Under the pieces are notes generated by a model. The model ran no database searches. It worked only from the letters and a program-made list of their open reading frames with translations, and was not told where the DNA came from. A stretch of 64,000 nt of DNA from Limnephilus marmoratus (taxonomy: Eukaryota > Arthropoda > Insecta > Trichoptera > Limnephilidae): contig OU862919.1 in NCBI GenBank assembly GCA_917880885.1, positions 17,192,001 through 17,256,000 of the forward strand, read 5' to 3'. Of the stretch, positions 24,540 through 54,216 are shown one piece after another (position 1 is the stretch's first letter; each line of letters begins with the position of its first letter). Position numbers and translations under genes: made by a program.

Positions 24540-24591
24540 TTTACAATAAAAAACACATAAATTCGTTTAAGACCACTTTTATTTTAAAACA

Positions 24592-24629: not shown

Positions 24630-24650
24630 AATATTATAAGTTATAATATT

Positions 24651-24688: not shown

Positions 24689-24740
24689 TGTTTTAAAATA
24701 AAAGTGGTCTTAAACAAATTTACTTGTTTTTTATTGTAAA

Positions 24741-25263: not shown

Positions 25264-25300
25264 GTTTCGCTTATCTCAAGCTTTATCTTTATTCAGTGGG

Positions 25301-28216: not shown

Positions 28217-28260
28217 GCAGTTGGGACTCTTGTGCGGTATTCACATAAAAAATTTACCCG
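28217..28260 (+). repeat. Single unit of the hAT-internal tandem repeat, ending in CCCG
   Basis: GCAGTTGGGACTCTTGTGCG followed by GTATTCACATAA matches the array units at 17130-17490. The final CCCG (28257-28260) is the left TSD of the LTR array. Confidence 0.7.
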
Positions 28261-31200
28261 TGTGATGGGTCAACCCCCCCCTAATGGAAAACTTTAAAAT
28301 ATTTCTTCTTCTCGTGCGTTCAGATCTCCGGTTGGCAGATCTTACTCTCGTACCTACTGAATGATTCGCCATTAATCTTTTGAATCATGACTTATTTTTC
28401 CCACCCCTGTGACTGAACACAGTAAAAGGTAGTTTTCCGGGAAATTCTTACAATAAACCCTTTTCTCCACGTTGTGTGATTTTTTTTTTTCGGAGCACCT
28501 AGAACATCTAGGATAGGTATTTAATGTCTTTCGTGGTAACTTTCGGTTCTTTAGGTAAGGTGTGGAAGAATTACTCTGTATCTCTTAGACGTCTGAAGGA
28601 CACGCCCTGTCTAAACTATCCTAAATTTGTCTCACATAATGAGCACTGTTGTTATTACTCTCGCTAGGCTGTAAAATTGATCTCTCCCCCTCTACGTCCT
28701 AATAAGTTTTAATGTACGTACCTGGAATGTTTCATTTCATGTGGATAATTGGCGAATTCTCAGCACCGCTCTCCAAGGCTAGATGCTATACATAATCGTG
28801 ATAATATGTTCTGTTGTTAGTAAACACAAACTTATACCTAGGATGGAAGTATAAAGACGGGATAGAGGATAGAATGGATGGTGATGGAGAGGAAATTCTT
28901 TGCAAACTAGTACTGGCTCCTCCACTTGACCAAATTGACTAGGTGGTCAGCTCTCAGAACACGACCCTCCGACCAATGCATGATGAGGCTATACCCATGG
29001 CACCCGGAAAATCTCTTGACGATAAACCAGATACCCGGACCCCTCCATAACAAAAGAAGAACGGCATGCCTTCAAACCTTTCCCAGACAACTCCAGTATC
29101 GAACACCTCCGGAACTACTTTACTGGCTCTAGAAGGGGTAATCTATTTCGTCCCTTATCAAGACTCTATTCACGGTACAAGTGGGGTAAGCTTGTGACAG
29201 GCAGATCCGTCCTCCCACGTGACCGACCTAGCGTTACACTCCACCTCCAGGAGCTGACATAATCCTCACCTTGTGGGCATTACGTTTGCTTCTGGGTCGA
29301 CAGGACTAAAAAATGTGATGATGCTACAGGAACCCGTCCCACAGATGACCTGTTGGCGCATTTCCATACTACCTTGCAGGCAACGCGAGATGCTTTCGGC
29401 CAAACGCCTCCGTCTGCGAACCATGCCCTGTCTTACCATTGGCATCTCATTTCACACGACCCTGTTGCGCCCATTCGCTCGACATAGTCCCGCGAAAGGG
29501 AATTGCTTCCAGCACCTCGCGAGACCCGATCAGTCTATGGAGGGCAACCCTCCTCCTCCCTAACATGACAATGTGGGAAGGACCCTTACCACTCGACCAC
29601 CAATTTCTCACATAATGTGTAGTCTCGGTGTCACCAACACATTCGTCAATCGTGAAGAACTTAAAAAGCGTAATTCAAGAAGTAGGAATTTAGCAGAGTA
29701 CCTGTTGGTTTTATTTGTTTCATTTTTTATATCGTGATTCTGCTCTTCTGCTCCCTTGTCTAAAGATGTCTGTTCGGGTTGCAGGTAATCGCCTTCAATT
29801 TGATATGTCGTACTCTCGAGATGCTCCCCATTTGGTTGACTGTATTCTCTGTGTCAGGTTCATTTTTTGTGTCAGCTCGGCATCAGCCGTGTGCCGAGAA
29901 AAGGTCACTGTCCAGGGTGGTGGCTGGTAACATCTGTGAAATACGCCTAGTACCTATTCAGGGATAAATAGTACCTACATCAATCTACTCGATACAGACA
30001 CTCATGCAATTAATTGTCCAAGATTCGCGTTCTATTCACACCCCCGGCAATCAACAGGACCTGTAATTTATATAGATTCTTTAACTCACCCATACGTAAT
30101 TGTTTAATTCTCCGGTCGGGAAAACACGACCAATTGTATCTTAATTACGTATCCTGTAGACCTGTACCTATGGAGAAAACACAAAGGCCCCTCCCTACGA
30201 TTTCCTAAATTTTTGTACGACGAGGCCTAACGTAACCTTAGATTTACGATTAAATTTAACCCCTCCCCTTATAGTCTGAATTTGATTGGAGGTATCTTTA
30301 TCGCTTCAGTCTGACTATCTCGCAATTGTAATGTACTCCTGTTGTCCGATGTTTGAAGATTACTTCAAATATACCTATCGTCCCTCTTTAAATATGTGTG
30401 CTCTCTAAGGTTAAATTACCGCTTGTTACATCTTCGTATCGAAACCACTAGATTGAACGTTTTCATAGATTATTATTATTATTGTTTTATTTCTAACTAT
30501 TCGGAATACATTTTTTTTCCATTTCAAGAGAACGATTGTTTGATCGTAATTAAGATTTTTTTTTATATCCTATTATTATTTCTGATTTAAAACCCGCAAT
30601 TTTATTATTATCATTTATTTGTCGACACCGTTTAAATTGTAGTAATACTGAAGTTTTTATTATTAGATCACGCTTGTTTAAACCGAATTAATAACTGTTA
30701 TTACAACTCGATATTCTCACTGTTCTTAAATAATTTCACTAACTTTTTAAAGTTCCTAAAAGCTTTTCACCACTGGCTCGTACCCCTTTCCCTGAATCTA
30801 ATTGAATAACACCTTGCACAAAATCCACTGAAGTTAAAAAAAGAGAAAAATTCCCAAAACACTCCCCGGTTCGCGCGCTTTTGGTAAGCCTTTTCTTACG
30901 AGATCTCACAGTCAACTCCCCCCTCTTCCGTAAAACAGCCCTTTTTAATCCCCCACTTTCAAACTTAATTTTTACAATTTCAACCTTTAAAATGCACAAC
31001 CTTCATAGTTTCCAAATCTAGTATCGTATCCCGCGGTTTACGATCTTTCGTCCTGAACGGTGCTCCCAACACAAATTTCGTATTGCGAGAAGGCGCTATT
31101 TCGCTGCATCGGACAGGGGCGAACTCGGTAGATATCCATACGAAACTTCTGCAAGACTAGCGCCTACAAGGTATCATTTACCATGTGAATAATTAACTCT

Positions 31201-32735
31201 ACTTCCCTCGAAAATCTATCGTGTCCGTTCTACCATTTTTAAAATCGCTTCCAGGTACGGTGTATCCTGAACTTTCGATATACTTTCCATACTTTTCTCA
31301 GTAACCCCAAGTCTTAGCTCAAATCGGCAACCTACAACATTTTCCGACCGTCATCTACTATGCATCTTATTATTGCACAAATCGTATAACACGTCACCTT
31401 CTAGGTATTTCGTCACCTTAGCATTTAACTATGAACTTTCTAACAATTTTTGACTGAATACTCTTATTCAGACGTATCCCTTACGTGGACATGCGGCCGT
31501 GTTTGTTCCTGGCTATATGACGGTTTCCTGGGGTCCGCATACATTTTCTTAATATTTCCCGCGTTCGCAAATACCTAAGTACAATCTCTAGTCATTTGAC
31601 CCCTTCCTAACCAAGATCGCGACACTCGTAACGCCTTGTTTAGTAATAACCTAAACTTTTATGGTCTCGATTCTCCTTTTTACGGGCTGTGACCTCTACC
31701 AAAACCTAACTCCATACCTGCCTCCGAACGTTTTTTATCTGCATTTCTAGTTCCTCCTACCATATCCCATCTCCTTCTGGCGTAAAACCCAATAAATCTC
31801 CGTTGTTATGCGCCTAGCAATTAAGAAAAATACTTAAGAAATCAAATAATTTAAAATCCTGACAGGCCGTTAAATTTTATGGCTTTTCTTAATTCCCTAT
31901 TCCCTATATCTTGCGTATAACCTCGAGTGGTGATTCCGGCTTAATGAATATCCTAATTACTCAAAACTGTGTTAGATCTTTTCCACTTCAAACCACTTCA
32001 ATACGCAAGAGGTCGACAACATTTCCTCCCCTCTAAACCTATCGGATACAAAATTCACCCTGAATTGTTAGATTTTATTTGGTCGTTAACGTAATGGATT
32101 CCTTCCTGTCGACCCTGACATTATTAGCTTTTGTGTTTTGACTACCGTATTACGTTCCTCCCTAATACCTACATGCAAATCCCGCTGGAATTTTGTTTGG
32201 GAAAAGCGATATTGATTGTCAATGCCTACTCCCGTTTCTATTCTCATATAATTGAAATCGTTCGTTACTTCATGTTTAATTAACGCATGATTTTTGTCCT
32301 TTTAAAACCTCCGCCAACGAGATACTTGAAAAAACTCCCCGACCCCCGATGCGAAATCAACTGTTGTCAATTCCTTTGTGCCCCCATAAAAATGCGATTT
32401 ATGGCCAAATTAGAAGTGCCACTTCCACTTAAAATAACTATCTGCTTAGACCGTGGGACACTTTTGTGTCTCAATTTGGCACAACCCCCTCACACCACGC
32501 CCTGAGATGTGATTGGCTGATACGTGCCTAATGGCTTCAAATCATACTCTGATTTGCTAGTCGTTTTTTTCTTCCAAAATTTGTTGACACCCTTCGTAGC
32601 AGAAAAAATGTTCAATTATTACAGTTTCCCTTAATATTGCTTTCAAAATTAGCCAATAGATGTCGATAGTGTGATCATATTATCAATAAAAAAAAATATT
32701 ATTCGCTAACCATTCAACAAGGCAGGTTCATCACA
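28261..32735 (-). repeat. LTR1 (4475 bp)
   Basis: Bounded by TGTGATG and CATCACA. It carries the short variant at about 30829-30845 (AAAAAAAGAGAAAAA), GGCTCGTAC, and CTTTGTGCC near 32371. A hairpin CTCGGCA/TGCCGAG lies at 29877-29901. Short plus-strand ORFs here are antisense to the element and not credible. An 86-codon sense (minus) ORF at 30999-30739 encodes a Lys/Arg-rich peptide without a known domain. Confidence 0.88.
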
Positions 32736-32746
32736 GCCTCCCTATA
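32736..32746 (-). promoter_or_regulatory. Polypurine tract adjoining LTR1
   Basis: The sense (minus) strand reads ATAGGGAGGC immediately before TGTGATG of the 3' LTR, the expected position for priming plus-strand DNA synthesis. It is short and ends in C, so it is a modest match. The same sequence sits at 39870 and 47045. Confidence 0.55.
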
Positions 32747-33785
32747 GAAATTATCTCCAATGTCAAAGCGCTATTAGTGGTTGGTCAGTGGAGTCATTTC
32801 TAAATGCAGTTTTAGTTTGCTTCCCCCTCCCCTCCGTGTTTTCTCTTTCCCAAAATGTGTCGTACCTAAATGTTCTGTATCCCTTCCCCTCGCAGGTTAA
32901 CTGTCCGTTCTACCCCCTTCTCCTCCTCCGTTTTTCTTTCAACAATTTAACTTTACACAAACGTTCCACTGTCCCACATCCCGACGGTTACTGTATTTAA
33001 TTTATTTATTTTCTTTAAAATCTCAATCGACTCTCCCAATCCGGCCCCGCTGGCTGTTCCACTGCTAAGCGACCACCGGTACGCTCGTGTCTTACGAACT
33101 GCCACATGTCCTTGTTTTTTTTTCAAACCCCCTGCCCGCCAACAGTAATTTTTTTTTTCGCATTCTTTTAACCGTACTCCGACATAGGGTAGTGTATTTT
33201 TTTTGTTAATGTCTGTTATCTTAATTTTTTGTTATCTCGTGCGCAATTTTACGAGTATGACCGACCCTTTCTTTGTTTCTTGTCATATAACAACAAAATC
33301 TGGTGTGCTGATTAAAACTAAACTATCTTTTGTTTCATATTTTTATTTAATGAATTCTCAATATCTACAGGACTACGGAAGTTTAGCTGGAAAATTTTAT
33401 TTATTTATTTTTTTTTCTTTTTAAGCTGGTTTCGGTATCATTCGCTTAGAGGGAGACTAAAGATCACTATTATTTTATAACACCTTTCGTCACTCAATTT
33501 ACCAAAACTAAAAACACTTTCACTTAATTTTATAACACTTTTCGTTTAACAATAAATTAGTAATTTGGGTTATATATTTCGAACTTCGGGTTAAGTATTT
33601 TCCAGATTTCGGTTTTCCTCTGTGCTGAAACCATTTTTCAATTTACTTTTGTCTACTCAATGACCTATTTAAGACGACTAACTTACGTCAGTTGCTGTTC
33701 CTACTCTTTGTCCTACCACCTTAATATTCTTACTCCTATATATATATAAGGGTAAGAATTTATATATATAATATAATATCTTATA

Positions 33786-33789
<4 letters not shown>

Positions 33790-33843
<54 letters not shown>
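33790..33843. repeat. (TA)n microsatellite in int1
   Basis: TA run embedded in ATAATATAATAT. The equivalent runs at about 40924-40990 and 48101-48157 differ in length, accounting for part of the size variation between units. Confidence 0.9.
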
Positions 33844-33847
<4 letters not shown>

Positions 33848-34563
33848 CTTCCCGATCGAGACAGTTTCCAATCTTTGAATTTCCTTATTTATGTATATAT
33901 ATATATATTTTTTTTTTCCGCGATTCCAGAATTCCACACGAATTTTGCTCGCAGGAACAACTTAATGGCAACAGTGCATATATGTACATACACGCATTAC
34001 ACATATATGCACACATAAACACCCATTTTTTTTTTTTTTGATTGGGCTATCTCTACGGTCTCCCTTCAAAATAAACTAACCCTTTTTCCCATTGATAAAC
34101 TTAGAAAAGACATTATTACCTATCAATATAATTTTTTGTTTTTGTCGTGCGCTAGACCGTCTCCATTCAATATAACAATTAGTGTATGAACAGGACTACT
34201 CAATGTTGGCCCGATTGCATCATTGTTTCTACTGGTTTGTTGTCCGGTCACCCCAGTTTAAAGAAATTTCAAACCTTAGTGCAGGTCGACTAACCACTAT
34301 TATACTCGCTACGGTGAATCGATATTGAAATGGATCATCGAAGAACTATCTCCCCTAATACATGACACACTTTCTCGTTGCTTCTTATCGAAGGTTGGAT
34401 ACCACTAACTACTAACTACCCTGCTGATTATGTTCAAAATTTTAATTGACGTACGGCGCAACTCTCACTGATTCCCAACCCATTTGAATCAAAATCTCTC
34501 CTACCAGTGTGGTGTGACACGAACATGTCTAAATCCACTAAAGGCTTTTAGCTGATCACGTTT

Positions 34564-34875
34564 CCTCCCTAAGCCTAAAAAATCCTTTTGTCGCCTTTAA
34601 GCATGAATTTGTTCTAACCTAACCATGCTTGAATTTAATAACCAATCGATTGGTTCCGCCCCCTCCCTAAGCCATAAAAACTCCTTATTCCTTTAACATG
34701 AAATTTTTCTAAACTAAACACGTTGATTGTAGTAACCATTTGGTTGGTCTTATCCCCTCCCTAACCCACTAAAATCCCTTCTTCTTAGACATGAAATTTC
34801 CTAGCCTAAACACGCTTGAATGTAATAACTATTTGATTGGTCTCATCTCCTCCCTAATTCACTAAAACCTCTTAT
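34564..34875. repeat. Degenerate tandem repeat of about 94 bp in int1
   Basis: Units start with CCTCCCTAA at 34564, 34662, 34756 and 34849 (periods 98, 94, 93). Each carries ACATGAAATTT or a variant, CTAAAC-A-CACG and TTGATTGG/TTGGTTGG. The same array occurs in int2 and int3. Confidence 0.75.
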
Positions 34876-35374
34876 TGCAACGATTTAATTCTCTTCCAAG
34901 TGATTATTACAGTTATTTTAAGCTAGTGATTTGTTTACTTTCCGCCCTGGGTCATTAACCGAACCTTTTTTTTCGCCCCGGGTTGTTGCATTCCTGACCT
35001 AGTTACGATAGTCGAACGTAAAGTCATAAATCTTCGATCTTTATGATGTGTTCACTGAACCTTTTTTTGTTGCATCCCGGTTTTTTCCTTCTCCGCACCC
35101 TAACTTGAAAGGCAATTACCTACATTTAAACCGTTGGGGTCGTAAATCTTTGCTAATGGTTTTGTTTACTTTCCGTCTAAGGGGCAATGACCTACATCTG
35201 CAGATTTAAAACTCCTGGCTACTGATTTGTTTAAATACATTTTTGTTTTTTTTTTTCTATTCTTGCCTACTTATTTTTTTTTTTGAAAGCTTTTCTTCCC
35301 ACGTAATAATTCGTAACTGTCTTTCAAATTGCACTAAGATACATTGAAATTCCCCCAGCTTTTAAAACCTTACC

Positions 35375-35391
35375 TCCTGGTCACGGCACCA
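35375..35391 (-). promoter_or_regulatory. Primer-binding site for tRNA-His (int1)
   Basis: The minus strand reads TGGTGCCGTGACCAGGA starting 2 nt after the LTR end. Eukaryotic tRNA-His ends ...GTCACGGCACCA, so at least the first 12 bases are complementary. With the T-arm of insect tRNA-His as I recall it (CCTGG), the match extends to about 17. The position and the leading TGG are diagnostic and fix the orientation of the element. Confidence 0.85.
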
Positions 35392-35393
35392 CT

Positions 35394-38300
35394 TGTGATG
35401 GGTCAACCCCCCCCCTAATGGAAAACTTTAAAATATTTCTTCTTCTCGTGCGTTCAGATCTCCGGTTGGCAGATCTTACTCTCGTACCTACTGAATGATT
35501 CGCCATTAATCTTTTGAATCATGACTTATTTTTCCCACCCCTGTGACTGAACACAGTAAAAGGTAGTTTTCCGGGAAATTCTTACAATAAACCCTTTTCT
35601 CCACGTTGTGTGATTTTTTTTTTTCGGAGCACCTAGAACATCTAGGATAGGTATTTAATGTCTTTCGTGGTAACTTTCGGTTCTTTAGGTAAGGTGTGGA
35701 AGAATTACTCTGTATCTCTTAGACGTCTGAAGGACACGCCCTGTCTAAACTATCCTAAATTTGTCTCACATAATGAGCACTGTTGTTATTACTCTCGCTA
35801 GGCTGTAAAATTGATCTCTCCCCCTCTACGTCCTAATAAGTTTTAATGTACGTACCTGGAATGTTTCATTTCATGTGGATAATTGGCGAATTCTCAGCAC
35901 CGCTCTCCAAGGCTAGATGCTATACATAATCGTGATAATATGTTCTGTTGTTAGTAAACACAAACTTATACCTAGGATGGAAGTATAAAGACGGGATAGA
36001 GGATAGAATGGATGGTGATGGAGAGGAAATTCTTTGCAAACTAGTACTGGCTCCTCCACTTGACCAAATTGACTAGGTGGTCAGCTCTCAGAACACGACC
36101 CTCCGACCAATGCATGATGAGGCTATACCCATGGCACCCGGAAAATCTCTTGACGATAAACCAGATACCCGGACCCCTCCATAACAAAAGAAGAACGGCA
36201 TGCCTTCAAACCTTTCCCAGACAACTCCAGTATCGAACACCTCCGGAACTACTTTACTGGCTCTAGAAGGGGTAATCTATTTCGTCCCTTATCAAGACTC
36301 TATTCACGGTACAAGTGGGGTAAGCTTGTGATAGGCAGATCCGTCCTCCCACGTGACCGACCTAGCGTTACACTCCACCTCCAGGAGCTGACATAATCCT
36401 CACCTTGTGGGCATTACGTTTGCTTCTGGGTCGACAGGACTAAAAAATGTGATGATGCTACAGGAACCCGTCCCACAGATGACCTGTTGGCGCATTTCCA
36501 TACTACCTTGCAGGCAACGCGAGATGCTTTCGGCCAAACGCCTCCGTCTGCGAACCATGCCCTGTCTTACCATTGGCATCTCATTTCACACGACCCTGTT
36601 GCGCCCATTCGCTCGACATAGTCCCGCGAAAGGGAATTGCTTCCAGCACCTCGCGAGACCCGATCAGTCTATGGAGGGCAACCCTCCTCCTCCCTAACAT
36701 GACAATGTGGGAAGGACCCTTACCACTCGACCACCAATTTCTCACATAATGTGTAGTCTCGGTGTCACCAACACATTCGTCAATCGTGAAGAACTTAAAA
36801 AGCGTAATTCAAGAAGTAGGAATTTAGCAGAGTACCTGTTGGTTTTATTTGTTTCATTTTTTATATCGTGATTCTGCTCTTCTGCTCCCTTGTCTAAAGA
36901 TGTCTGTTCGGGTTGCAGGTAATCGCCTTCAATTTGATATGTCGTACTCTCGAGATGCTCCCCATTTGGTTGACTGTATTCTCTGTGTCAGGTTCATTTT
37001 TTGTGTCAGCTCGGCATCAGCCGTGTGCCGAGAAAAGGTCACTGTCCAGGGTGGTGGCTGGTAACATCTGTGAAATACGCCTAGTACCTATTCAGGGATA
37101 AATAGTACCTACATCAATCTACTCGATACAGACACTCATGCAATTAATTGTCCAAGATTCGCGTTCTATTCACACCCCCGGCAATCAACAGGACCTGTAA
37201 TTTATATAGATTCTTTAACTCACCCATACGTAATTGTTTAATTCTCCGGTCGGGAAAACACGACCAATTGTATCTTAATTACGTATCCTGTAGACCTGTA
37301 CCTATGGAGAAAACACAAAGGCCCCTCCCTACGATTTCCTAAATTTTTGTACGACGAGGCCTAACGTAACCTTAGATTTACGATTAAATTTAACCCCTCC
37401 CCTTATAGTCTGAATTTGATTGGAGGTATCTTTATCGCTTCAGTCTGACTATCTCGCAATTGTAATGTACTCCTGTTGTCCGATGTTTGAAGATTACTTC
37501 AAATATACCTATCGTCCCTCTTTAAATATGTGTGCTCTCTAAGGTTAAATTACCGCTTGTTACATCTTCGTATCGAAACCACTAGATTGAACGTTTTCAT
37601 AGATTATTATTATTATTGTTTTATTTCTAACTATTCGGAATACATTTTTTTTCCATTTCAAGAGAACGATTGTTTGATCGTAATTAAGATTTTTTTTTAT
37701 ATCCTATTATTATTTCTGATTTAAAACCCGCAATTTTATTATTATCATTTATTTGTCGACACCGTTTAAATTGTAGTAATACTGAAGTTTTTATTATTAG
37801 ATCACGCTTGTTTAAACCGAATTAATAACTGTTATTACAACTCGATATTCTCACTGTTCTTAAATAATTTCACTAACTTTTTAAAGTTCCTAAAAGCTTT
37901 TCACCACTGGCTCGTACCCCTTTCCCTGAATCTAATTGAATAACACCTTGCACAAAATCCACTGAAGTTAAAAAAAGAGAAAAATTCCCAAAACACTCCC
38001 CGGTTCGCGCGCTTTTGGTAAGCCTTTTCTTACGAGATCTCACAGTCAACTCCCCCCTCTTCCGTAAAACAGCCCTTTTTAATCCCCCACTTTCAAACTT
38101 AATTTTTACAATTTCAACCTTTAAAATGCACAACCTTCATAGTTTCCAAATCTAGTATCGTATCCCGCGGTTTACGATCTTTCGTCCTGAACGGTGCTCC
38201 CAACACAAATTTCGTATTGCGAGAAGGCGCTATTTCGCTGCATCGGACAGGGGCGAACTCGGTAGATATCCATACGAAACTTCTGCAAGACTAGCGCCTA

Positions 38301-39869
38301 CAAGGTATCATTTACCATGTGAATAATTAACTCTACTTCCCTCGAAAATCTATCGTGTCCGTTCTACCATTTTTAAAATCGCTTCCAGGTACGGTGTATC
38401 TTGAACTTTCGATATACTTTCCATACTTTTCTCAGTAACCCCAAGTCTTAGCTCAAATCGGCAACCTACAACATTTTCCGACCGTCATCTACTATGCATC
38501 TTATTATTGCACAAATCGTATAACACGTCACCTTCTAGGTATTTCGTCACCTTAGCATTTAACTATGAACTTTCTAACAATTTTTGACTGAATACTCTTA
38601 TTCAGACGTATCCCTTACGTGGACATGCGGCCGTGTTTGTTCCTGGCTATATGACGGTTTCCTGGGGTCCGCATACATTTTCTTAATATTTCCCGCGTTC
38701 GCAAATACCTAAGTACAATCTCTAGTCATTTGACCCCTTCCTAACCAAGATCGCGACACTCGTAACGCCTTGTTTAGTAATAACCTAAACTTTTATGGTC
38801 TCGATTCTCCTTTTTACGGGCTGTGACCTCTACCAAAACCTAACTCCATACCTGCCTCCGAACGTTTTTTATCTGCATTTCTAGTTCCTCCTACCATATC
38901 CCATCTCCTTCTGGCGTAAAACCCAATAAATCTCCGTTGTTATGCGCCTAGCAATTAAGAAAAATACTTAAGAAATCAAATAATTTAAAATCCTGACAGG
39001 CCGTTAAATTTTATGGCTTTTCTTAATTCCCTATTCCCTATATCTTGCGTATAACCTCGAGTGGTGATTCCGGCTTAATGAATATCCTAATTACTCAAAA
39101 CTGTGTTAGATCTTTTCCACTTCAAACCACTTCAATACGCAAGAGGTCGACAACATTTCCTCCCCTCTAAACCTATCGGATACAAAATTCACCCTGAATT
39201 GTTAGATTTTATTTGGTCGTTAACGTAATGGATTCCTTCCTGTCGACCCTGACATTATTAGCTTTTGTGTTTTGACTACCGTATTACGTTCCTCCCTAAT
39301 ACCTACATGCAAATCCCGCTGGAATTTTGTTTGGGAAAAGCGATATTGATTGTCAATGCCTACTCCCGTTTCTATTCTCATATAATTGAAATCGTTCGTT
39401 ACTTCATGTTTAATTAACGCATGATTTTTGTCCTTTTAAAACCTCCGCCAACGAGATACTTGAAAAAACTCCCCGACCCCCGATGCGAAATCAACTGTTG
39501 TCAATTCCTTTGTGCCCCCATAAAAATGCGATTTATGGCCAAATTAGAAGTGCCACTTCCACTTAAAATAACTATCTGCTTAGACCGTGGGACACTTTTG
39601 TGTCTCAATTTGGCACAACCCCCTCACACCACGCCCTGAGATGTGATTGGCTGATACGTGCCTAATGGCTTCAAATCATACTCTGATTTGCTAGTCGTTT
39701 TTTTCTTCCAAAATTTGTTGACACCCTTCGTAGCAGAAAAAATGTTCAATTATTACAGTTTCCCTTAATATTGCTTTCAAAATTAGCCAATAGATGTCGA
39801 TAGTGTGATCATATTATCAATAAAAAAAAATATTATTCGCTAACCATTCAACAAGGCAGGTTCATCACA
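35394..39869 (-). repeat. LTR2 (4476 bp)
   Basis: Nearly identical to LTR1, with the same short variant (about 37965-37985) and the same 86-codon minus ORF (38133-37873). Private or differing sites include GTGATAGGC (about 36328) and GTATCTTGAA (about 38396), and one extra C in the C run near its start. Confidence 0.88.
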
Positions 39870-40919
39870 GCCTCCCTATAGAAATTATCTCCAATGTCAA
39901 AGCGCTATTAGTGGTTGGTCAGTGGAGTCATTTCTAAATGCAGTTTTAGTTTGCTTCCCCCTCCCCTCCGTGTTTTCTCTTTCCCAAAATGTGTCGTACC
40001 TAAATGTTCTGTATCCCTTCCCCTCGCAGGTTAACTGTCCGTTCTACCCCCTTCTCCTCCTCCGTTTTTCTTTCAACAATTTAACTTTACACAAACGTTC
40101 CACTGTCCCACATCCCGACGGTTACTGTATTTAATTTATTTATTTTCTTTAAAATCTCAATCGACTCTCCCAATCCGGCCCCGCTGGCTGTTCCACTGCT
40201 AAGCGACCACCGGTACGCTCGTGTCTTACGAACTGCCACATGTCCTTGTTTTTTTTTCAAACCCCCTGCCCGCCAACAGTAATTTTTTTTTTCGCATTCT
40301 TTTAACCGTACTCCGACATAGGGTAGTGTATTTTTTTTGTTAATGTCTGTTATCTTAATTTTTTGTTATCTCGTGCGCAATTTTACGAGTATGACCGACC
40401 CTTTCTTTGTTTCTTGTCATATAACAACAAAATCTGGTGTGCTGATTAAAACTAAACTATCTTTTGTTTCATATTTTTATTTAATGAATTCTCAATATCT
40501 ACAGGACTACGGAAGTTTAGCTGGAAAATTTTATTTATTTATTTTTTTTTCTTTTTAAGCTGGTTTCGGTATCATTCGCTTAGAGGGAGACTAAAGATCA
40601 CTATTATTTTATAACACCTTTCGTCACTCAATTTACCAAAACTAAAAACACTTTCACTTAATTTTATAACACTTTTCGTTTAACAATAAATTAGTAATTT
40701 GGGTTATATATTTCGAACTTCGGGTTAAGTATTTTCCAGATTTCGGTTTTCCTCTGTGCTGAAACCATTTTTCAATTTACTTTTGTCTACTCAATGACCT
40801 ATTTAAGACGACTAACTTACGTCAGTTGCTGTTCCTACTCTTTGTCCTACCACCTTAATATTCTTACTCCTATATATATATAAGGGTAAGAATTTATATA
40901 TATAATATAATATCTTATA

Positions 40920-40993
<74 letters not shown>

Positions 40994-42538: not shown

Positions 42539-45500
42539 TGTGATGGGTCAACCCCCCCCCTAATGGAAAACTTTAAAATATTTCTTCTTCTCGTGCGTTC
42601 AGATCTCCGGTTGGCAGATCTTACTCTCGTACCTACTGAATGATTCGCCATTAATCTTTTGAATCATGACTTATTTTTCCCACCCCTGTGACTGAACACA
42701 GTAAAAGGTAGTTTTCCGGGAAATTCTTACAATAAACCCTTTTCTCCACGTTGTGTGATTTTTTTTTTTCGGAGCACCTAGAACATCTAGGATAGGTATT
42801 TAATGTCTTTCGTGGTAACTTTCGGTTCTTTAGGTAAGGTGTGGAAGAATTACTCTGTATCTCTTAGACGTCTGAAGGACACGCCCTGTCTAAACTATCC
42901 TAAATTTGTCTCACATAATGAGCACTGTTGTTATTACTCTCGCTAGGCTGTAAAATTGATCTCTCCCCCTCTACGTCCTAATAAGTTTTAATGTACGTAC
43001 CTGGAATGTTTCATTTCATGTGGATAATTGGCGAATTCTCAGCACCGCTCTCCAAGGCTAGATGCTATACATAATCGTGATAATATGTTCTGTTGTTAGT
43101 AAACACAAACTTATACCTAGGATGGAAGTATAAAGACGGGATAGAGGATAGAATGGATGGTGATGGAGAGGAAATTCTTTGCAAACTAGTACTGGCTCCT
43201 CCACTTGACCAAATTGACTAGGTGGTCAGCTCTCAGAACACGACCCTCCGACCAATGCATGATGAGGCTATACCCATGGCACCCGGAAAATCTCTTGACG
43301 ATAAACCAGATACCCGGACCCCTCCATAACAAAAGAAGAACGGCATGCCTTCAAACCTTTCCCAGACAACTCCAGTATCGAACACCTCCGGAACTACTTT
43401 ACTGGCTCTAGAAGGGGTAATCTATTTCGTCCCTTATCAAGACTCTATTCACGGTACAAGTGGGGTAAGCTTGTGATAGGCAGATCCGTCCTCCCACGTG
43501 ACCGACCTAGCGTTACACTCCACCTCCAGGAGCTGACATAATCCTCACCTTGTGGGCATTACGTTTGCTTCTGGGTCGACAGGACTAAAAAATGTGATGA
43601 TGCTACAGGAACCCGTCCCACAGATGACCTGTTGGCGCATTTCCATACTACCTTGCAGGCAACGCGAGATGCTTTCGGCCAAACGCCTCCGTCTGCGAAC
43701 CATGCCCTGTCTTACCATTGGCATCTCATTTCACACGACCCTGTTGCGCCCATTCGCTCGACATAGTCCCGCGAAAGGGAATTGCTTCCAGCACCTCGCG
43801 AGACCCGATCAGTCTATGGAGGGCAACCCTCCTCCTCCCTAACATGACAATGTGGGAAGGACCCTTACCACTCGACCACCAATTTCTCACATAATGTGTA
43901 GTCTCGGTGTCACCAACACATTCGTCAATCGTGAAGAACTTAAAAAGCGTAATTCAAGAAGTAGGAATTTAGCAGAGTACCTGTTGGTTTTATTTGTTTC
44001 ATTTTTTATATCGTGATTCTGCTCTTCTGCTCCCTTGTCTAAAGATGTCTGTTCGGGTTGCAGGTAATCGCCTTCAATTTGATATGTCGTACTCTCGAGA
44101 TGCTCCCCATTTGGTTGACTGTATTCTCTGTGTCAGGTTCATTTTTTGTGTCAGCTCGGCATCAGCCGTGTGCCGAGAAAAGGTCACTGTCCAGGGTGGT
44201 GGCTGGTAACATCTGTGAAATACGCCTAGTACCTATTCAGGGATAAATAGTACCTACATCAATCTACTCGATACAGACACTCATGCAATTAATTGTCCAA
44301 GATTCGCGTTCTATTCACACCCCCGGCAATCAACAGGACCTGTAATTTATATAGATTCTTTAACTCACCCATACGTAATTGTTTAATTCTCCGGTCGGGA
44401 AAACACGACCAATTGTATCTTAATTACGTATCCTGTAGACCTGTACCTATGGAGAAAACACAAAGGCCCCTCCCTACGATTTCCTAAATTTTTGTACGAC
44501 GAGGCCTAACGTAACCTTAGATTTACGATTAAATTTAACCCCTCCCCTTATAGTCTGAATTTGATTGGAGGTATCTTTATCGCTTCAGTCTGACTATCTC
44601 GCAATTGTAATGTACTCCTGTTGTCCGATGTTTGAAGATTACTTCAAATATACCTATCGTCCCTCTTTAAATATGTGTGCTCTCTAAGGTTAAATTACCG
44701 CTTGTTACATCTTCGTATCGAAACCACTAGATTGAACGTTTTCATAGATTATTATTATTATTGTTTTATTTCTAACTATTCGGAATACATTTTTTTTCCA
44801 TTTCAAGAGAACGATTGTTTGATCGTAATTAAGATTTTTTTTTATATCCTATTATTATTTCTGATTTAAAACCCGCAATTTTATTATTATCATTTATTTG
44901 TCGACACCGTTTAAATTGTAGTAATACTGAAGTTTTTATTATTAGATCACGCTTGTTTAAACCGAATTAATAACTGTTATTACAACTCGATATTCTCACT
45001 GTTCTTAAATAATTTCACTAACTTTTTAAAGTTCCTAAAAGCTTTTCACCACTGGCTTGTACCCCTTTCCCTGAATCTAATTGAATAACACCTTGCACAA
45101 AATCCACTGAAGTTAGCTCGACAATCCACCGAACGTTTTTTCGCTAAGTCTTCGAAAAATTCCCAAAACACTCCCCGGTTCGCGCGCTTTTGGTAAGCCT
45201 TTTCTTACGAGATCTCACAGTCAACTCCCCCCTCTTCCGTAAAACAGCCCTTTTTAATCCCCCACTTTCAAACTTAATTTTTACAATTTCAACCTTTAAA
45301 ATGCACAACCTTCATAGTTTCCAAATCTAGTATCGTATCCCGCGGTTTACGATCTTTCGTCCTGAACGGTGCTCCCAACACAAATTTCGTATTGCGAGAA
45401 GGCGCTATTTCGCTGCATCGGACAGGGGCGAACTCGGTAGATATCCATACGAAACTTCTGCAAGACTAGCGCCTACAAGGTATCATTTACCATGTGAATA

Positions 45501-47044
45501 ATTAACTCTACTTCCCTCGAAAATCTATCGTGTCCGTTCTACCATTTTTAAAATCGCTTCCAGGTACGGTGTATCCTGAACTTTCGATATACTTTCCATA
45601 CTTTTCTCAGTAACCCCAAGTCTTAGCTCAAATCGGCAACCTACAACATTTTCCGACCGTCATCTACTATGCATCTTATTATTGCACAAATCGTATAACA
45701 CGTCACCTTCTAGGTATTTCGTCACCTTAGCATTTAACTATGAACTTTCTAACAATTTTTGACTGAATACTCTTATTCAGACGTATCCCTTACGTGGACA
45801 TGCGGCCGTGTTTGTTCCTGGCTATATGACGGTTTCCTGGGGTCCGCATACATTTTCTTAATATTTCCCGCGTTCGCAAATACCTAAGTACAATCTCTAG
45901 TCATTTGACCCCTTCCTAACCAAGATCGCGACACTCGTAACGCCTTGTTTAGTAATAACCTAAACTTTTATGGTCTCGATTCTCCTTTTTACGGGCTGTG
46001 ACCTCTACCAAAACCTAACTCCATACCTGCCTCCGAACGTTTTTTATCTGCATTTCTAGTTCCTCCTACCATATCCCATCTCCTTCTGGCGTAAAACCCA
46101 ATAAATCTCCGTTGTTATGCGCCTAGCAATTAAGAAAAATACTTAAGAAATCAAATAATTTAAAATCCTGACAGGCCGTTAAATTTTATGGCTTTTCTTA
46201 ATTCCCTATTCCCTATATCTTGCGTATAACCTCGAGTGGTGATTCCGGCTTAATGAATATCCTAATTACTCAAAACTGTGTTAGATCTTTTCCACTTCAA
46301 ACCACTTCAATACGCAAGAGGTCGACAACATTTCCTCCCCTCTAAACCTATCGGATACAAAATTCACCCTGAATTGTTAGATTTTATTTGGTCGTTAACG
46401 TAATGGATTCCTTCCTGTCGACCCTGACATTATTAGCTTTTGTGTTTTGACTACCGTATTACGTTCCTCCCTAATACCTACATGCAAATCCCGCTGGAAT
46501 TTTGTTTGGGAAAAGCGATATTGATTGTCAATGCCTACTCCCGTTTCTATTCTCATATAATTGAAATCGTTCGTTACTTCATGTTTAATTAACGCATGAT
46601 TTTTGTCCTTTTAAAACCTCCGCCAACGAGATACTTGAAAAAACTCCCCGACCCCCGATGCGAAATCAACTGTTGTCAATTCCTTCGTGCCCCCATAAAA
46701 ATGCGATTTATGGCCAAATTAGAAGTGCCACTTCCACTTAAAATAACTATCTGCTTAGACCGTGGGACACTTTTGTGTCTCAATTTGGCACAACCCCCTC
46801 ACACCACGCCCTGAGATGTGATTGGCTGATACGTGCCTAATGGCTTCAAATCATACTCTGATTTGCTAGTCGTTTTTTTCTTCCAAAATTTGTTGACACC
46901 CTTCGTAGCAGAAAAAATGTTCAATTATTACAGTTTCCCTTAATATTGCTTTCAAAATTAGCCAATAGATGTCGATAGTGTGATCATATTATCAATAAAA
47001 AAAAATATTATTCGCTAACCATTCAACAAGGCAGGTTCATCACA
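42539..47044 (-). repeat. LTR3 (4506 bp)
   Basis: Carries the long variant at about 45113-45155 (GCTCGACAATCCACCGAACG and following) where LTR1 and LTR2 have a short A-rich stretch. It also has GGCTTGTAC and CTTCGTGCC. The 86-codon minus ORF of LTR1/2 is not preserved because of this difference. Confidence 0.88.
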
Positions 47045-48094
47045 GCCTCCCTATAGAAATTATCTCCAATGTCAAAGCGCTATTAGTGGTTGGTCAGTGG
47101 AGTCATTTCTAAATGCAGTTTTAGTTTGCTTCCCCCTCCCCTCCGTGTTTTCTCTTTCCCAAAATGTGTCGTACCTAAATGTTCTGTATCCCTTCCCCTC
47201 GCAGGTTAACTGTCCGTTCTACCCCCTTCTCCTCCTCCGTTTTTCTTTCAACAATTTAACTTTACACAAACGTTCCACTGTCCCACATCCCGACGGTTAC
47301 TGTATTTAATTTATTTATTTTCTTTAAAATCTCAATCGACTCTCCCAATCCGGCCCCGCTGGCTGTTCCACTGCTAAGCGACCACCGGTACGCTCGTGTC
47401 TTACGAACTGCCACATGTCCTTGTTTTTTTTTCAAACCCCCTGCCCGCCAACAGTAATTTTTTTTTTCGCATTCTTTTAACCGTACTCCGACATAGGGTA
47501 GTGTATTTTTTTTGTTAATGTCTGTTATCTTAATTTTTTGTTATCTCGTGCGCAATTTTACGAGTATGACCGACCCTTTCTTTGTTTCTTGTCATATAAC
47601 AACAAAATCTGGTGTGCTGATTAAAACTAAACTATCTTTTGTTTCATATTTTTATTTAATGAATTCTCAATATCTACAGGACTACGGAAGTTTAGCTGGA
47701 AAATTTTATTTATTTATTTTTTTTTCTTTTTAAGCTGGTTTCGGTATCATTCGCTTAGAGGGAGACTAAAGATCACTATTATTTTATAACACCTTTCGTC
47801 ACTCAATTTACCAAAACTAAAAACACTTTCACTTAATTTTATAACACTTTTCGTTTAACAATAAATTAGTAATTTGGGTTATATATTTCGAACTTCGGGT
47901 TAAGTATTTTCCAGATTTCGGTTTTCCTCTGTGCTGAAACCATTTTTCAATTTACTTTTGTCTACTCAATGACCTATTTAAGACGACTAACTTACGTCAG
48001 TTGCTGTTCCTACTCTTTGTCCTACCACCTTAATATTCTTACTCCTATATATATATAAGGGTAAGAATTTATATATATAATATAATATCTTATA

Positions 48095-48160
<66 letters not shown>

Positions 48161-49706
48161 CTTCCCGATCGAGACAGTTTCCAATCTTTGAATTTCCTTA
48201 TTTATGTATATATATATATATTTTTTTTTTCCGCGATTCCAGAATTCCACACGAATTTTGCTCGCAGGAACAACTTAATGGCAACAGTGCATATATGTAC
48301 ATACACGCATTACACATATATGCACACATAAACACCCATTTTTTTTTTTTTTGATTGGGCTATCTCTACGGTCTCCCTTCAAAATAAACTAACCCTTTTT
48401 CCCATTGATAAACTTAGAAAAGACATTATTACCTATCAATATAATTTTTTGTTTTTGTCGTGCGCTAGACCGTCTCCATTCAATATAACAATTAGTGTAT
48501 GAACAGGACTACTCAATGTTGGCCCGATTGCATCATTGTTTCTACTGGTTTGTTGTCCGGTCACCCCAGTTTAAAGAAATTTCAAACCTTAGTGCAGGTC
48601 GACTAACCACTATTATACTCGCTACGGTGAATCGATATTGAAATGGATCATCGAAGAACTATCTCCCCTAATACATGACACACTTTCTCGTTGCTTCTTA
48701 TCGAAGGTTGGATACCACTAACTACTAACTACCCTGCTGATTATGTTCAAAATTTTAATTGACGTACGGCGCAACTCTCACTGATTCCCAACCCATTTGA
48801 ATCAAAATCTCTCCTACCAGTGTGGTGTGACACGAACATGTCTAAATCCACTAAAGGCTTTTAGCTGATCACGTTTCCTCCCTAAGCCTAAAAAATCCTT
48901 TTGTCGCCTTTAAGCATGAATTTGTTCTAACCTAACCATGCTTGAATTTAATAACCAATCGATTGGTTCCGCCCCCTCCCTAAGCCATAAAAACTCCTTA
49001 TTCCTTTAACATGAAATTTTTCTAAACTAAACACGTTGATTGTAGTAACCATTTGGTTGGTCTTATCCCCTCCCTAACCCACTAAAATCCCTTCTTCTTA
49101 GACATGAAATTTCCTAGCCTAAACACGCTTGAATGTAATAACTATTTGATTGGTCTCATCTCCTCCCTAATTCACTAAAACCTCTTATTGCAACGATTTA
49201 ATTCTCTTCCAAGTGATTATTACAGTTATTTTAAGCTAGTGATTTGTTTACTTTCCGCCCTGGGTCATTAACCGAACCTTTTTTTTCGCCCCGGGTTGTT
49301 GCATTCCTGACCTAGTTACGATAGTCGAACGTAAAGTCATAAATCTTCGATCTTTATGATGTGTTCACTGAACCTTTTTTTGTTGCATCCCGGTTTTTTC
49401 CTTCTCCGCACCCTAACTTGAAAGGCAATTACCTACATTTAAACCGTTGGGGTCGTAAATCTTTGCTAATGGTTTTGTTTACTTTCTGTCTAAGGGGCAA
49501 TGACCTACATCTGCAGATTTAAAACTCCTGGCTACTGATTTGTTTAAATACATTTTTTTTTTTTTTTTTCTATTCTTGCCTACTTATTTTTTTTTTTGAA
49601 AGCTTTTCTTCCCACGTAATAATTCGTAACTGTCTTTCAAATTGCACTAAGATACATTGAAATTCCCCCAGCTTTTAAAACCTTACCTCCTGGTCACGGC
49701 ACCACT
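47045..49706 (-). mobile_element. Internal domain 3 (2662 bp), non-coding
   Basis: Same layout as int1. It differs by TTTCTGTCTAAGG for TTTCCGTCTAAGG (about 49485) and by an uninterrupted T run near 49550. Primer-binding site at 49688-49704 (minus). Confidence 0.85.
49688..49704 (-). promoter_or_regulatory. Primer-binding site for tRNA-His (int3)
   Basis: Identical to the int1 site. In the sense orientation it follows LTR4, the outermost 5' LTR of the array. Confidence 0.85.
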
Positions 49707-52700
49707 TGTGATGGGTCAACCCCCCCCCTAATGGAAAACTTTAAAATATTTCTTCTTCTCGTGCGTTCAGATCTCCGGTTGGCAGATCTTACTCTCGTAC
49801 CTACTGAATGATTCGCCATTAATCTTTTGAATCATGACTTATTTTTCCCACCCCTGTGACTGAACACAGTAAAAGGTAGTTTTCCGGGAAATTCTTACAA
49901 TAAACCCTTTTCTCCACGTTGTGTGATTTTTTTTTTTCGGAGCACCTAGAACATCTAGGATAGGTATTTAATGTCTTTCGTGGTAACTTTCGGTTCTTTA
50001 GGTAAGGTGTGGAAGAATTACTCTGTATCTCTTAGACGTCTGAAGGACACGCCCTGTCTAAACTATCCTAAATTTGTCTCACATAATGAGCACTGTTGTT
50101 ATTACTCTCGCTAGGCTGTAAAATTGATCTCTCCCCCTCTACGTCCTAATAAGTTTTAATGTACGTACCTGGAATGTTTCATTTCATGTGGATAATTGGC
50201 GAATTCTCAGCACCGCTCTCCAAGGCTAGATGCTATACATAATCGTGATAATATGTTCTGTTGTTAGTAAACACAAACTTATACCTAGGATGGAAGTATA
50301 AAGACGGGATAGAGGATAGAATGGATGGTGATGGAGAGGAAATTCTTTGCAAACTAGTACTGGCTCCTCCACTTGACCAAATTGACTAGGTGGTCAGCTC
50401 TCAGAACACGACCCTCCGACCAATGCATGATGAGGCTATACCCATGGCACCCGGAAAATCTCTTGACGATAAACCAGATACCCGGACCCCTCCATAACAA
50501 AAGAAGAACGGCATGCCTTCAAACCTTTCCCAGACAACTCCAGTATCGAACACCTCCGGAACTACTTTACTGGCTCTAGAAGGGGTAATCTATTTCGTCC
50601 CTTATCAAGACTCTATTCACGGTACAAGTGGGGTAAGCTTGTGACAGGCAGATCCGTCCTCCCACGTGACCGACCTAGCGTTACACTCCACCTCCAGGAG
50701 CTGACATAATCCTCACCTTGTGGGCATTACGTTTGCTTCTGGGTCGACAGGACTAAAAAATGTGATGATGCTACAGGAACCCGTCCCACAGATGACCTGT
50801 TGGCGCATTTCCATACTACCTTGCAGGCAACGCGAGATGCTTTCGGCCAAACGCCTCCGTCTGCGAACCATGCCCTGTCTTACCATTGGCATCTCATTTC
50901 ACACGACCCTGTTGCGCCCATTCGCTCGACATAGTCCCGCGAAAGGGAATTGCTTCCAGCACCTCGCGAGACCCGATCAGTCTATGGAGGGCAACCCTCC
51001 TCCTCCCTAACATGACAATGTGGGAAGGACCCTTACCACTCGACCACCAATTTCTCACATAATGTGTAGTCTCGGTGTCACCAACACATTCGTCAATCGT
51101 GAAGAACTTAAAAAGCGTAATTCAAGAAGTAGGAATTTAGCAGAGTACCTGTTGGTTTTATTTGTTTCATTTTTTATATCGTGATTCTGCTCTTCTGCTC
51201 CCTTGTCTAAAGATGTCTGTTCGGGTTGCAGGTAATCGCCTTCAATTTGATATGTCGTACTCTCGAGATGCTCCCCATTTGGTTGACTGTATTCTCTGTG
51301 TCAGGTTCATTTTTTGTGTCAGCTCGGCATCAGCCGTGTGCCGAGAAAAGGTCACTGTCCAGGGTGGTGGCTGGTAACATCTGTGAAATACGCCTAGTAC
51401 CTATTCAGGGATAAATAGTACCTACATCAATCTACTCGATACAGACACTCATGCAATTAATTGTCCAAGATTCGCGTTCTATTCACACCCCCGGCAATCA
51501 ACAGGACCTGTAATTTATATAGATTCTTTAACTCACCCATACGTAATTGTTTAATTCTCCGGTCGGGAAAACACGACCAATTGTATCTTAATTACGTATC
51601 CTGTAGACCTGTACCTATGGAGAAAACACAAAGGCCCCTCCCTACGATTTCCTAAATTTTTGTACGACGAGGCCTAACGTAACCTTAGATTTACGATTAA
51701 ATTTAACCCCTCCCCTTATAGTCTGAATTTGATTGGAGGTATCTTTATCGCTTCAGTCTGACTATCTCGCAATTGTAATGTACTCCTGTTGTCCGATGTT
51801 TGAAGATTACTTCAAATATACCTATCGTCCCTCTTTAAATATGTGTGCTCTCTAAGGTTAAATTACCGCTTGTTACATCTTCGTATCGAAACCACTAGAT
51901 TGAACGTTTTCATAGATTATTATTATTATTGTTTTATTTCTAACTATTCGGAATACATTTTTTTTCCATTTCAAGAGAACGATTGTTTGATCGTAATTAA
52001 GATTTTTTTTTATATCCTATTATTATTTCTGATTTAAAACCCGCAATTTTATTATTATCATTTATTTGTCGACACCGTTTAAATTGTAGTAATACTGAAG
52101 TTTTTATTATTAGATCACGCTTGTTTAAACCGAATTAATAACTGTTATTACAACTCGATATTCTCACTGTTCTTAAATAATTTCACTAACTTTTTAAAGT
52201 TCCTAAAAGCTTTTCACCACTGGCTTGTACCCCTTTCCCTGAATCTAATTGAATAACACCTTGCACAAAATCCACTGAAGTTAGCTCGACAATCCACCGA
52301 ACGTTTTTTCGCTAAGTCTTCGAAAAATTCCCAAAACACTCCCCGGTTCGCGCGCTTTTGGTAAGCCTTTTCTTACGAGATCTCACAGTCAACTCCCCCC
52401 TCTTCCGTAAAACAGCCCTTTTTAATCCCCCACTTTCAAACTTAATTTTTACAATTTCAACCTTTAAAATGCACAACCTTCATAGTTTCCAAATCTAGTA
52501 TCGTATCCCGCGGTTTACGATCTTTCGTCCTGAACGGTGCTCCCAACACAAATTTCGTATTGCGAGAAGGCGCTATTTCGCTGCATCGGACAGGGGCGAA
52601 CTCGGTAGATATCCATACGAAACTTCTGCAAGACTAGCGCCTACAAGGTATCATTTACCATGTGAATAATTAACTCTACTTCCCTCGAAAATCTATCGTG

Positions 52701-54212
52701 TCCGTTCTACCATTTTTAAAATCGCTTCCAGGTACGGTGTATCCTGAACTTTCGATATACTTTCCATACTTTTCTCAGTAACCCCAAGTCTTAGCTCAAA
52801 TCGGCAACCTACAACATTTTCCGACCGTCATCTACTATGCATCTTATTATTGCACAAATCGTATAACACGTCACCTTCTAGGTATTTCGTCACCTTAGCA
52901 TTTAACTATGAACTTTCTAACAATTTTTGACTGAATACTCTTATTCAGACGTATCCCTTACGTGGACATGCGGCCGTGTTTGTTCCTGGCTATATGACGG
53001 TTTCCTGGGGTCCGCATACATTTTCTTAATATTTCCCGCGTTCGCAAATACCTAAGTACAATCTCTAGTCATTTGACCCCTTCCTAACCAAGATCGCGAC
53101 ACTCGTAACGCCTTGTTTAGTAATAACCTAAACTTTTATGGTCTCGATTCTCCTTTTTACGGGCTGTGACCTCTACCAAAACCTAACTCCATACCTGCCT
53201 CCGAACGTTTTTTATCTGCATTTCTAGTTCCTCCTACCATATCCCATCTCCTTCTGGCGTAAAACCCAATAAATCTCCGTTGTTATGCGCCTAGCAATTA
53301 AGAAAAATACTTAAGAAATCAAATAATTTAAAATCCTGACAGGCCGTTAAATTTTATGGCTTTTCTTAATTCCCTATTCCCTATATCTTGCGTATAACCT
53401 CGAGTGGTGATTCCGGCTTAATGAATATCCTAATTACTCAAAACTGTGTTAGATCTTTTCCACTTCAAACCACTTCAATACGCAAGAGGTCGACAACATT
53501 TCCTCCCCTCTAAACCTATCGGATACAAAATTCACCCTGAATTGTTAGATTTTATTTGGTCGTTAACGTAATGGATTCCTTCCTGTCGACCCTGACATTA
53601 TTAGCTTTTGTGTTTTGACTACCGTATTACGTTCCTCCCTAATACCTACATGCAAATCCCGCTGGAATTTTGTTTGGGAAAAGCGATATTGATTGTCAAT
53701 GCCTACTCCCGTTTCTATTCTCATATAATTGAAATCGTTCGTTACTTCATGTTTAATTAACGCATGATTTTTGTCCTTTTAAAACCTCCGCCAACGAGAT
53801 ACTTGAAAAAACTCCCCGACCCCCGATGCGAAATCAACTGTTGTCAATTCCTTCGTGCCCCCATAAAAATGCGATTTATGGCCAAATTAGAAGTGCCACT
53901 TCCACTTAAAATAACTATCTGCTTAGACCGTGGGACACTTTTGTGTCTCAATTTGGCACAACCCCCTCACACCACGCCCTGAGATGTGATTGGCTGATAC
54001 GTGCCTAATGGCTTCAAATCATACTCTGATTTGCTAGTCGTTTTTTTCTTCCAAAATTTGTTGACACCCTTCGTAGCAGAAAAAATGTTCAATTATTACA
54101 GTTTCCCTTAATATTGCTTTCAAAATTAGCCAATAGATGTCGATAGTGTGATCATATTATCAATAAAAAAAAATATTATTCGCTAACCATTCAACAAGGC
54201 AGGTTCATCACA
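49707..54212 (-). repeat. LTR4 (4506 bp), 5'-most LTR in the sense orientation
   Basis: Shares the long variant, GGCTTGTAC and CTTCGTGCC with LTR3, but has GTGACAGGC (about 50640) like LTR1. It ends GGTTCATCACA followed by the right TSD CCCG (54213-54216), with no purine-tract side beyond it. Confidence 0.88.
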
Positions 54213-54216
54213 CCCG

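Follow-up and report, generated by a model that had tools for sequence, protein, structure and literature searches.

A tandem array of a coding-free LTR retroelement with 4.5-kb LTRs that probably grew by recombination between its LTRs

Our analysis of a 64 kb stretch of DNA (the window) suggests that one insertion of a coding-free LTR element, its enzymes supplied in trans, grew to a trimer by LTR-LTR recombination, a reading to which we assign a probability of roughly 0.7. The locus is an array of about 26 kb in which four LTRs are interleaved with three interiors, and the LTR lengths of 4475-4506 bp and interior lengths of 2658-2669 bp given in an earlier note on this DNA were confirmed to the base by self-BLAST and exact boundaries (Table 1). 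New beyond that reading are a tRNA-His-like primer-binding site (PBS), a minus-strand sense, a 93-bp interior minisatellite and mosaic LTR markers. The element we propose is coding-free and non-autonomous, an LTR retrotransposon in which LTRs of 4.5 kb enclose a 2.66-kb interior and priming is by tRNA-His. It would have inserted once at a CCCG site with mobilising enzymes presumably supplied in trans, after which its LTRs would have gained variants and copies misaligned between sister chromatids or homologues would have recombined LTR-to-LTR, probably twice, taking LTR-int-LTR to LTR-int-LTR-int-LTR-int-LTR. The number and order of these crossovers are what we infer, as are mobilisation in trans and the enzyme lineage responsible.

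Table 1. Features of the array, in window positions.
Feature	Position	Strand	Basis
Left target-site duplication copy, CCCG	28257..28260	.	flank comparison
LTR1, 4475 bp, marker haplotype C-A, 3' LTR in minus-strand sense	28261..32735	-	self-BLAST and exact boundaries
Interior 1, 2658 bp	32736..35393	-	exact boundaries
Short purine-tract-like stretch adjoining LTR1, sense TATAGGGAGGC	32736..32746, same at 39870 and 47045	-	sequence inspection
93-bp minisatellite, 3.3 copies	34564..34876 (interior 1), 41709-42021 and 48877-49189 (other interiors)	.	repeat detection
Primer-binding site, plus strand reads TCCTGGTCACGGCACCA, 2 nt from LTR2	35375..35391	-	tRNA-His-like 3' end
LTR2, 4476 bp, haplotype T-A	35394..39869	-	exact boundaries
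Interior 2, 2669 bp	39870..42538	-	exact boundaries
Primer-binding site, second copy	42520..42536	-	exact boundaries
LTR3, 4506 bp, haplotype T-B	42539..47044	-	exact boundaries
Interior 3, 2662 bp	47045..49706	-	exact boundaries
Primer-binding site, third copy	49688..49704	-	exact boundaries
LTR4, 4506 bp, haplotype C-B, 5' LTR in minus-strand sense	49707..54212	-	exact boundaries
Right target-site duplication copy, CCCG	54213..54216	.	flank comparison

Self-BLAST recovered a tandem period of 7.13-7.17 kb across 28261-54212, with overlapping copies of the array 99.2-99.65% identical. As had been noted, each of the four LTRs runs from TGTGATG to CATCACA, so that all have inverted ends with TG..CA termini, and the CCCG flank is found at the two outermost ends only, the inner junctions reading CACCACT|TGTGATG and CATCACA|GCCTCC. 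Two random 4-mers drawn from the flanks in the window agree with a probability of 0.0065, the per-position frequency of CCCG is 0.0011, and the common flank is therefore unlikely to be due to chance. Moreover, the left and right flanks (1.8 kb each) have no match to one another, which rules out the joining of two separate insertions. The outer-only CCCG and the alternation of LTRs and interiors thus support the proposal that this is one integration site carrying a multimer. The array is known from the assembly alone and its units are nearly identical, so the copy number could reflect extra units introduced during assembly or the joining of two haplotypes, an explanation that is compatible with a true LTR element. 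However, a few SNVs, one 38-to-8 bp replacement and (TA)n length distinguish the copies (single-base differences in homopolymer runs being possible sequencing errors), which argues against duplication of one unit by software, and the first and last LTRs also differ. Joined haplotypes would likewise yield differences between units, and overall we regard an assembly artefact as very unlikely.

The array has the features by which LTR retrotransposons are recognized, namely direct repeats with TG..CA ends, an outer target-site duplication (TSD) and a tRNA-complementary PBS beside the 5' LTR. In all three interiors a 17-nt PBS lies on the minus strand 2 nt from the LTR, from which it follows that the element reads from right to left, and presumably insect tRNA-His matches all 17 of its bases. 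At up to 4 mismatches the 64 kb window held no PBS copies besides these three, and ARAGORN found no tRNA genes (0). Compared with the human tRNA-His printed in PMC6675128, 15 of the 17 bases match, including the last 12. A tRNA-His fragment is treated in the accessible text of PMC9673407, our literature search for the string TGGTGCCGTGACC returned only a match that is unrelated by its title, and no literature was found on a tRNA-His PBS in insects. At the opposite end of the interior a purine tract, AGGGAGGC, directly abuts the LTR, although it is short and stands without a control comparison. The termini, the TSD and the PBS support assignment of the locus to the LTR retroelements, with minus as the probable sense strand and a putative tRNA-His PBS. 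They also bear on whether a satellite or segmental tandem duplication might only resemble such an element, as its head-to-tail units of near-constant length could suggest. In each interior a tRNA-His-like PBS begins only 2 nt within the repeat junction, and this, together with the TG..CA inverted ends, the outer TSD and the fact that the array begins and ends exactly at LTR ends, makes that reading extremely improbable; a plain satellite origin was rejected on the PBS, the TSD and the termini.

An indication of how the array grew comes from its LTRs, where two marker groups occur in all four possible combinations (CA, TA, TB and CB from LTR1 to LTR4), the A and B types being set apart by the 38-to-8 bp replacement and two SNVs. 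This pattern could hardly have arisen unless the LTRs exchanged sequence, and it points to such exchange after the variants arose, in agreement with the LTR-LTR recombination that had been suggested for this array. The interiors are uninformative on its history, since each difference among the three is either private to one or a change in length. We enumerated histories for the two marker groups, in which the linked markers at 2520, the block and 4148 formed one group with a cost of 3; the scoring did not use position 3038, the indel in the C run or the interiors. From a monomer start all eight of the cheapest histories take two unequal crossovers, the second of them placed between LTR positions 939 and 2520, at a total cost of 6 when a crossover is charged 1. 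At the same charge a dimer start costs 5, the lowest of the three starts, so a dimeric insertion could be the first step.

This low cost of a dimer start can also be read in favor of a multimer that arrived ready-made, in which either cDNA in concatemeric form or a tandem RNA produced by read-through integrated once and gene conversion later shuffled the LTR variants. The whole array has one TSD, as this route would give, and the accessible text of the 2025 rice study (PMC11899658) keeps both complex insertion and recombination as candidates. However, a 26-kb product would be long for a virus-like particle, and mutation alone from a concatemer of four identical LTRs costs 8, as compared to the 6 of the two-crossover route from a monomer at a charge of 1. 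Raising the crossover charge to 2 brings the monomer start to 8 as well, so that only our simulation of mutation alone separates the two. Mutation alone would need several recurrent shared sites, and in the simulation one shared derived site appeared in 0.0014 of runs and three in 0 of 200000. Because mutation alone is costlier at a charge of 1 and three such recurrent sites were never recovered, later LTR exchange would be needed even for a ready-made multimer; with two gene conversions a concatemer costs about 6 by a hand count. We consider this origin unlikely. Another route needs no integrase: extrachromosomal cDNA or one-LTR circles would recombine into an existing copy, unit by unit and perhaps with a B-block subfamily as donor. 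It has a precedent in yeast, where integrase-independent entry into pre-existing elements is reported (as told in the accessible part of PMC11899658), and the A/B difference could mark subfamilies. However, over 4.5 kb a difference of two SNVs and a single complex indel fits mutation after insertion as well, and the interiors, with differences that are private or changes in length, give no help, leaving this route quite unlikely.

Our tests for coding capacity agree with the absence of gag and pol reported earlier for the interior. None of 27 distinct frames of at least 60 aa from one unit had a Pfam match at E 1, and the longest open frames, 106 aa on the plus strand and 95 aa on the minus strand, were equaled or exceeded in 138 and 87 of 200 Markov-control simulations, respectively. 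These results support an array that is probably free of detectable coding, the Pfam and frame-length tests leaving room for shorter or decayed remnants. A 101-aa LTR frame had no homologue among 5.8 billion proteins. Rfam gave no family at the gathering score anywhere within the array, and at a relaxed threshold one unit gave two miRNA matches (E 0.27 and 0.75) far under that score; an LTR derived from a small RNA, either a Cassandra-type 5S or another small-RNA gene, was rejected for want of a match at the gathering score. An LTR assembled from repeats was also rejected, as none was listed within LTR3 at E 0.01 by a script that would filter out perfect self-palindromes. The LTR-terminus pattern had 0 matches in viral contigs and 0 in prokaryote genome contigs, where little was expected, the PBS/LTR junction pattern had 0 in viral contigs, and the first 4000 bp of LTR3 matched no phage record. 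Separately, a search with a neighbouring RT ORF of 1017 aa gave 468 proteins, and among the best 120 of these the only entry with a species name is one from Mythimna separata at 35% identity.

Arrays of this kind are already known, mostly from plants, and the present locus is a large example; it is set apart by an LTR of 4.5 kb, longer than the coding-free interior, in an insect-like genome. The comparisons here draw on the accessible parts of the papers cited. Similar to LARDs, of which Sukkula of grasses is a named example (PMC7215508), it is a large coding-free LTR element with a noncoding interior; unlike them its LTR is longer than its interior, its host is insect-like, and it is known here from one locus. 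The plant LARD concept proposed for it is partly supported: the element is large, apparently lacks gag and pol, and may be called LARD-like on the basis of this single locus, but the strict meaning of LARD, which implies a dispersed family that moves in trans, would go further than this locus shows. Tandem arrays of Cassandra (PMC7215508) and of Wukong (PMC4528315) also alternate LTR and interior and are coding-free, and among 89 intact Wukong elements three LTRs are found in eight, four in five, and six and seven in two, most multi-LTR copies having TSDs (PMC4528315). However, Cassandra and Wukong are plant TRIMs and far smaller, and Cassandra LTRs carry 5S sequences (PMC7215508), of which the present LTRs give no Rfam match at the gathering score. 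In rice and several further plants, tandem LTR elements have been linked to a single insertion with 4-5 bp TSDs, and at one locus the LTRs and interiors are 99% identical (PMC11899658). This 2025 survey left complex insertion or recombination undecided as their origin, whereas the markers in the present LTRs favor an exchange of sequence between them. Adjacent units also have LTRs in common in the kangaroo KERV megasatellite, a tandem LTR element that, unlike ours, has a provirus structure and is centromeric (as told in PMC11899658). Because the long LTRs of the present locus carry several markers and record LTR exchange within one insertion, the origin of such arrays can usefully be tested here in an animal-like genome. 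We can only suggest tentatively, and with more doubt than confidence, that it belongs to a coding-free giant-LTR family of an insect-like genome whose extra-long LTRs favor repeated unequal exchange, such that single insertions routinely grow megasatellite-like arrays. If true, Cassandra arrays and KERV megasatellites would have a coding-free animal counterpart, seen here at a stage of three units.

The accessible text on mosquito and fly LTR elements in PMC3212995 and PMC3630058 has nothing resembling the present array. A likeness is found in the insect Culex, whose cqUNK elements are coding-free with a PBS, mostly a TSD, internal minisatellites and no known master copy (PMC3286476). However, in the table of that paper their LTRs measure 125-931 bp and a tRNA-His PBS is absent, as compared to about 4.5 kb and a tRNA-His-like PBS here, and its accessible text mentions no multimer, whereas the present element is a trimer. 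The earlier impression of few insect examples therefore needs qualification: the LARD label has been used in whitefly (859 copies in six lineages) and in the honey bee genome paper, where a LARD-labelled row gives 301, 16,406 and 3.10%, which we read, the column heads being outside the accessible part, as families, copies and genome share, and Culex has its coding-free LTR elements (PMC3286476). The largest LTR in the Culex table is 931 bp, and the present array suggests that coding-free LTR elements in insect-like genomes can reach LTRs near 4.5 kb.

The self-comparison that the earlier note had proposed as a check recovers a single large tandem region at 28261-54212, whose period is 7.13-7.17 kb and whose copies are 99.2-99.65% identical to each other. 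Exact matching of the ends places the array, to the base, where it had been drawn, with the same four LTRs (4475, 4476, 4506 and 4506 bp) alternating with three interiors (2658, 2669 and 2662 bp), and bears out that the CCCG flank occurs at the two outer ends only. The interior contains a stretch of (TA)n and a minisatellite with 3.3 copies of a 93-bp unit, and no internal repeats were listed for LTR3 at E 0.01. In all three interiors the plus strand ends in TCCTGGTCACGGCACCA-CT before the next LTR begins, and read on the minus strand TCCTGGTCACGGCACCA forms a primer-binding site (PBS) 2 nt from the LTR. Its presence there in 3/3 interiors makes a satellite unlikely, and we read the array as a retroelement. 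No further PBS copy was found in the 64 kb beyond the three interiors with up to 4 mismatches allowed. Since the PBS lies on the minus strand, the element's sense runs right to left, which makes LTR4 the 5' LTR and LTR1 the 3' LTR. On the sense strand CTATAGGGAGGC, a short purine tract, adjoins the LTR at the opposite end of each interior, and A exceeds T and G exceeds C in both LTR and interior. All 17 PBS bases presumably match insect tRNA-His. Against the human tRNA-His 3' end as printed in PMC6675128, 15/17 bases match, the final 12 without a break.

Similarly, the claim that the array lacks coding capacity agrees with our scans, which detected none. One unit (LTR plus interior) holds 28 stop-to-stop frames of at least 60 aa, one of them a junction duplicate, and 0/27 distinct frames matched Pfam at E 1; as a control, the scan detected reverse transcriptase (RT) in 3/3 ORFs taken from elsewhere in the window. 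Frame lengths were as simulated, the longest plus-strand (106 aa) and minus-strand (95 aa) frames being equalled or exceeded in 138/200 and 87/200 simulated sequences, respectively; shorter or strongly decayed gag/pol pieces may remain. No Rfam family reached gathering score within the array, and at a relaxed threshold one unit returned two miRNA matches and nothing else, both falling far short of that score.

The LTRs differ at the markers in the table and at a single base in a C run. Position 939 occurs in all four combinations with the other marker group (2520, the replacement block and 4148), so that exchange or recurrent change is required. Mutation-only simulation (seven SNVs, 200000 runs) gave at least one shared derived site in 0.0014 of runs and three in 0/200000, and differences among the three interiors are length changes or private to one interior. 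We then enumerated histories over the two marker groups, scoring mutations and unequal crossovers. From a monomer, all 8 cheapest histories contain two unequal crossovers; in the second, LTR2 and LTR1 recombine somewhere between positions 939 and 2520. These histories cost 5, 6 or 8 at crossover charges of 0.5, 1 or 2, and a four-LTR concatemer changed by mutation only costs 8; a monomer start therefore beats mutation alone at the two lower charges and ties at 2. A dimer start costs 5 at charge 1, and by hand count a concatemer with two gene conversions about 6. LTR-LTR exchange is thus well supported by markers, simulation and enumeration, as the suggested amplification by LTR-LTR recombination would have it, but the array may have begun as a monomer, a dimer or a longer concatemer. 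Two separate insertions joined together are ruled out, since the left and right flanks (1.8 kb each) show no mutual match at E 0.01. Between the outer LTRs, LTR1 and LTR4, there are 2 SNVs over 4475 bp. Insect mutation rates are 2-5e-9 per site and generation; assuming these, the insertion would be about 45,000-112,000 generations old if conversion erased no older changes.

Tandem arrays of alternating LTRs and interiors are an already known design. Cassandra arrays reach at least 12 LTR repeats (PMC7215508), and in maize, where 89 Wukong elements are intact, eight of these carry three LTRs, five carry four, and two have six and seven (PMC4528315). Similar to our array, rice tandem LTR elements each carry a single target-site duplication (TSD) at their outer ends; their authors leave recombination versus complex insertion undecided, and point to further cases in kangaroo (KERV), yeast and Drosophila (PMC11899658). 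Culex elements are likewise coding-free with minisatellites, but their tabulated LTRs span 125-931 bp against 4475-4506 bp here, and that table has no tRNA-His PBS (PMC3286476). The earlier view that insect LARDs (large coding-free LTR retroelements, a concept from plants) are few holds in part: the label is used in the honey bee genome paper (a table row 301 / 16,406 / 3.10, taken to give the number of families, the number of copies and the percentage of the genome) and the whitefly genome paper (six lineages). Among the open-access titles and opening lines of abstracts that were listed, none pointed to an insect multimer built of coding-free elements whose LTRs reach this size, which is weak evidence of absence. 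We call the array LARD-like, a candidate LARD.

Features of the window and LTR markers (marker states in the order LTR1 to LTR4)
Feature	Position	Strand	Description
Marker	LTR 939		C, T, T, C
Marker	LTR 2520		C, C, T, T
Replacement block	LTR alignment columns 2578-2615		A, A, B, B (8 vs 38 bp)
Marker	LTR 3038		C, T, C, C
Marker	LTR 4148		T, T, C, C
Non-LTR retrotransposon	3436-6489	+	uninterrupted 1017-aa frame, endonuclease and RT domains
Second RT-bearing element	10935-13508	-	adjacent open pieces of 638 and 218 aa, stop between
Dispersed repeat	16710-17929, 57059-58375		related copies, 83-88% identity, 71-bp tandem subrepeats
Repeat motif	28217-28256		40 bp directly left of array, matches motif repeated in dispersed-repeat copies
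MITE-like	54404-54817		close to right end of array, 19-bp perfect inverted repeat enclosing about 414 bp
tRNA-like	55479-55551	+	Rfam 46.4 bits, no ARAGORN call
Foldback-like	2844-3157, 15559-15705, 24540-24740, 24995-25266		long, self-complementary, 76-97% identical to own reverse complement
Minisatellites	62821-62898, 63560-63626		G-rich

Among the matches listed for the 1017-aa frame, the closest relative shares 61% identity over 98% and one lepidopteran-named match 35%; the latter, with the neighbouring non-LTR ORFs, which we take to be jockey-like, suggests an arthropod genome. In the second element the RT domain lies in the 638-aa piece, the one scanned. Around the MITE-like sequence no target duplication was obvious by eye. 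The tRNA-like sequence is possibly a SINE or tRNA relic, and the G-rich minisatellites could form quadruplexes.
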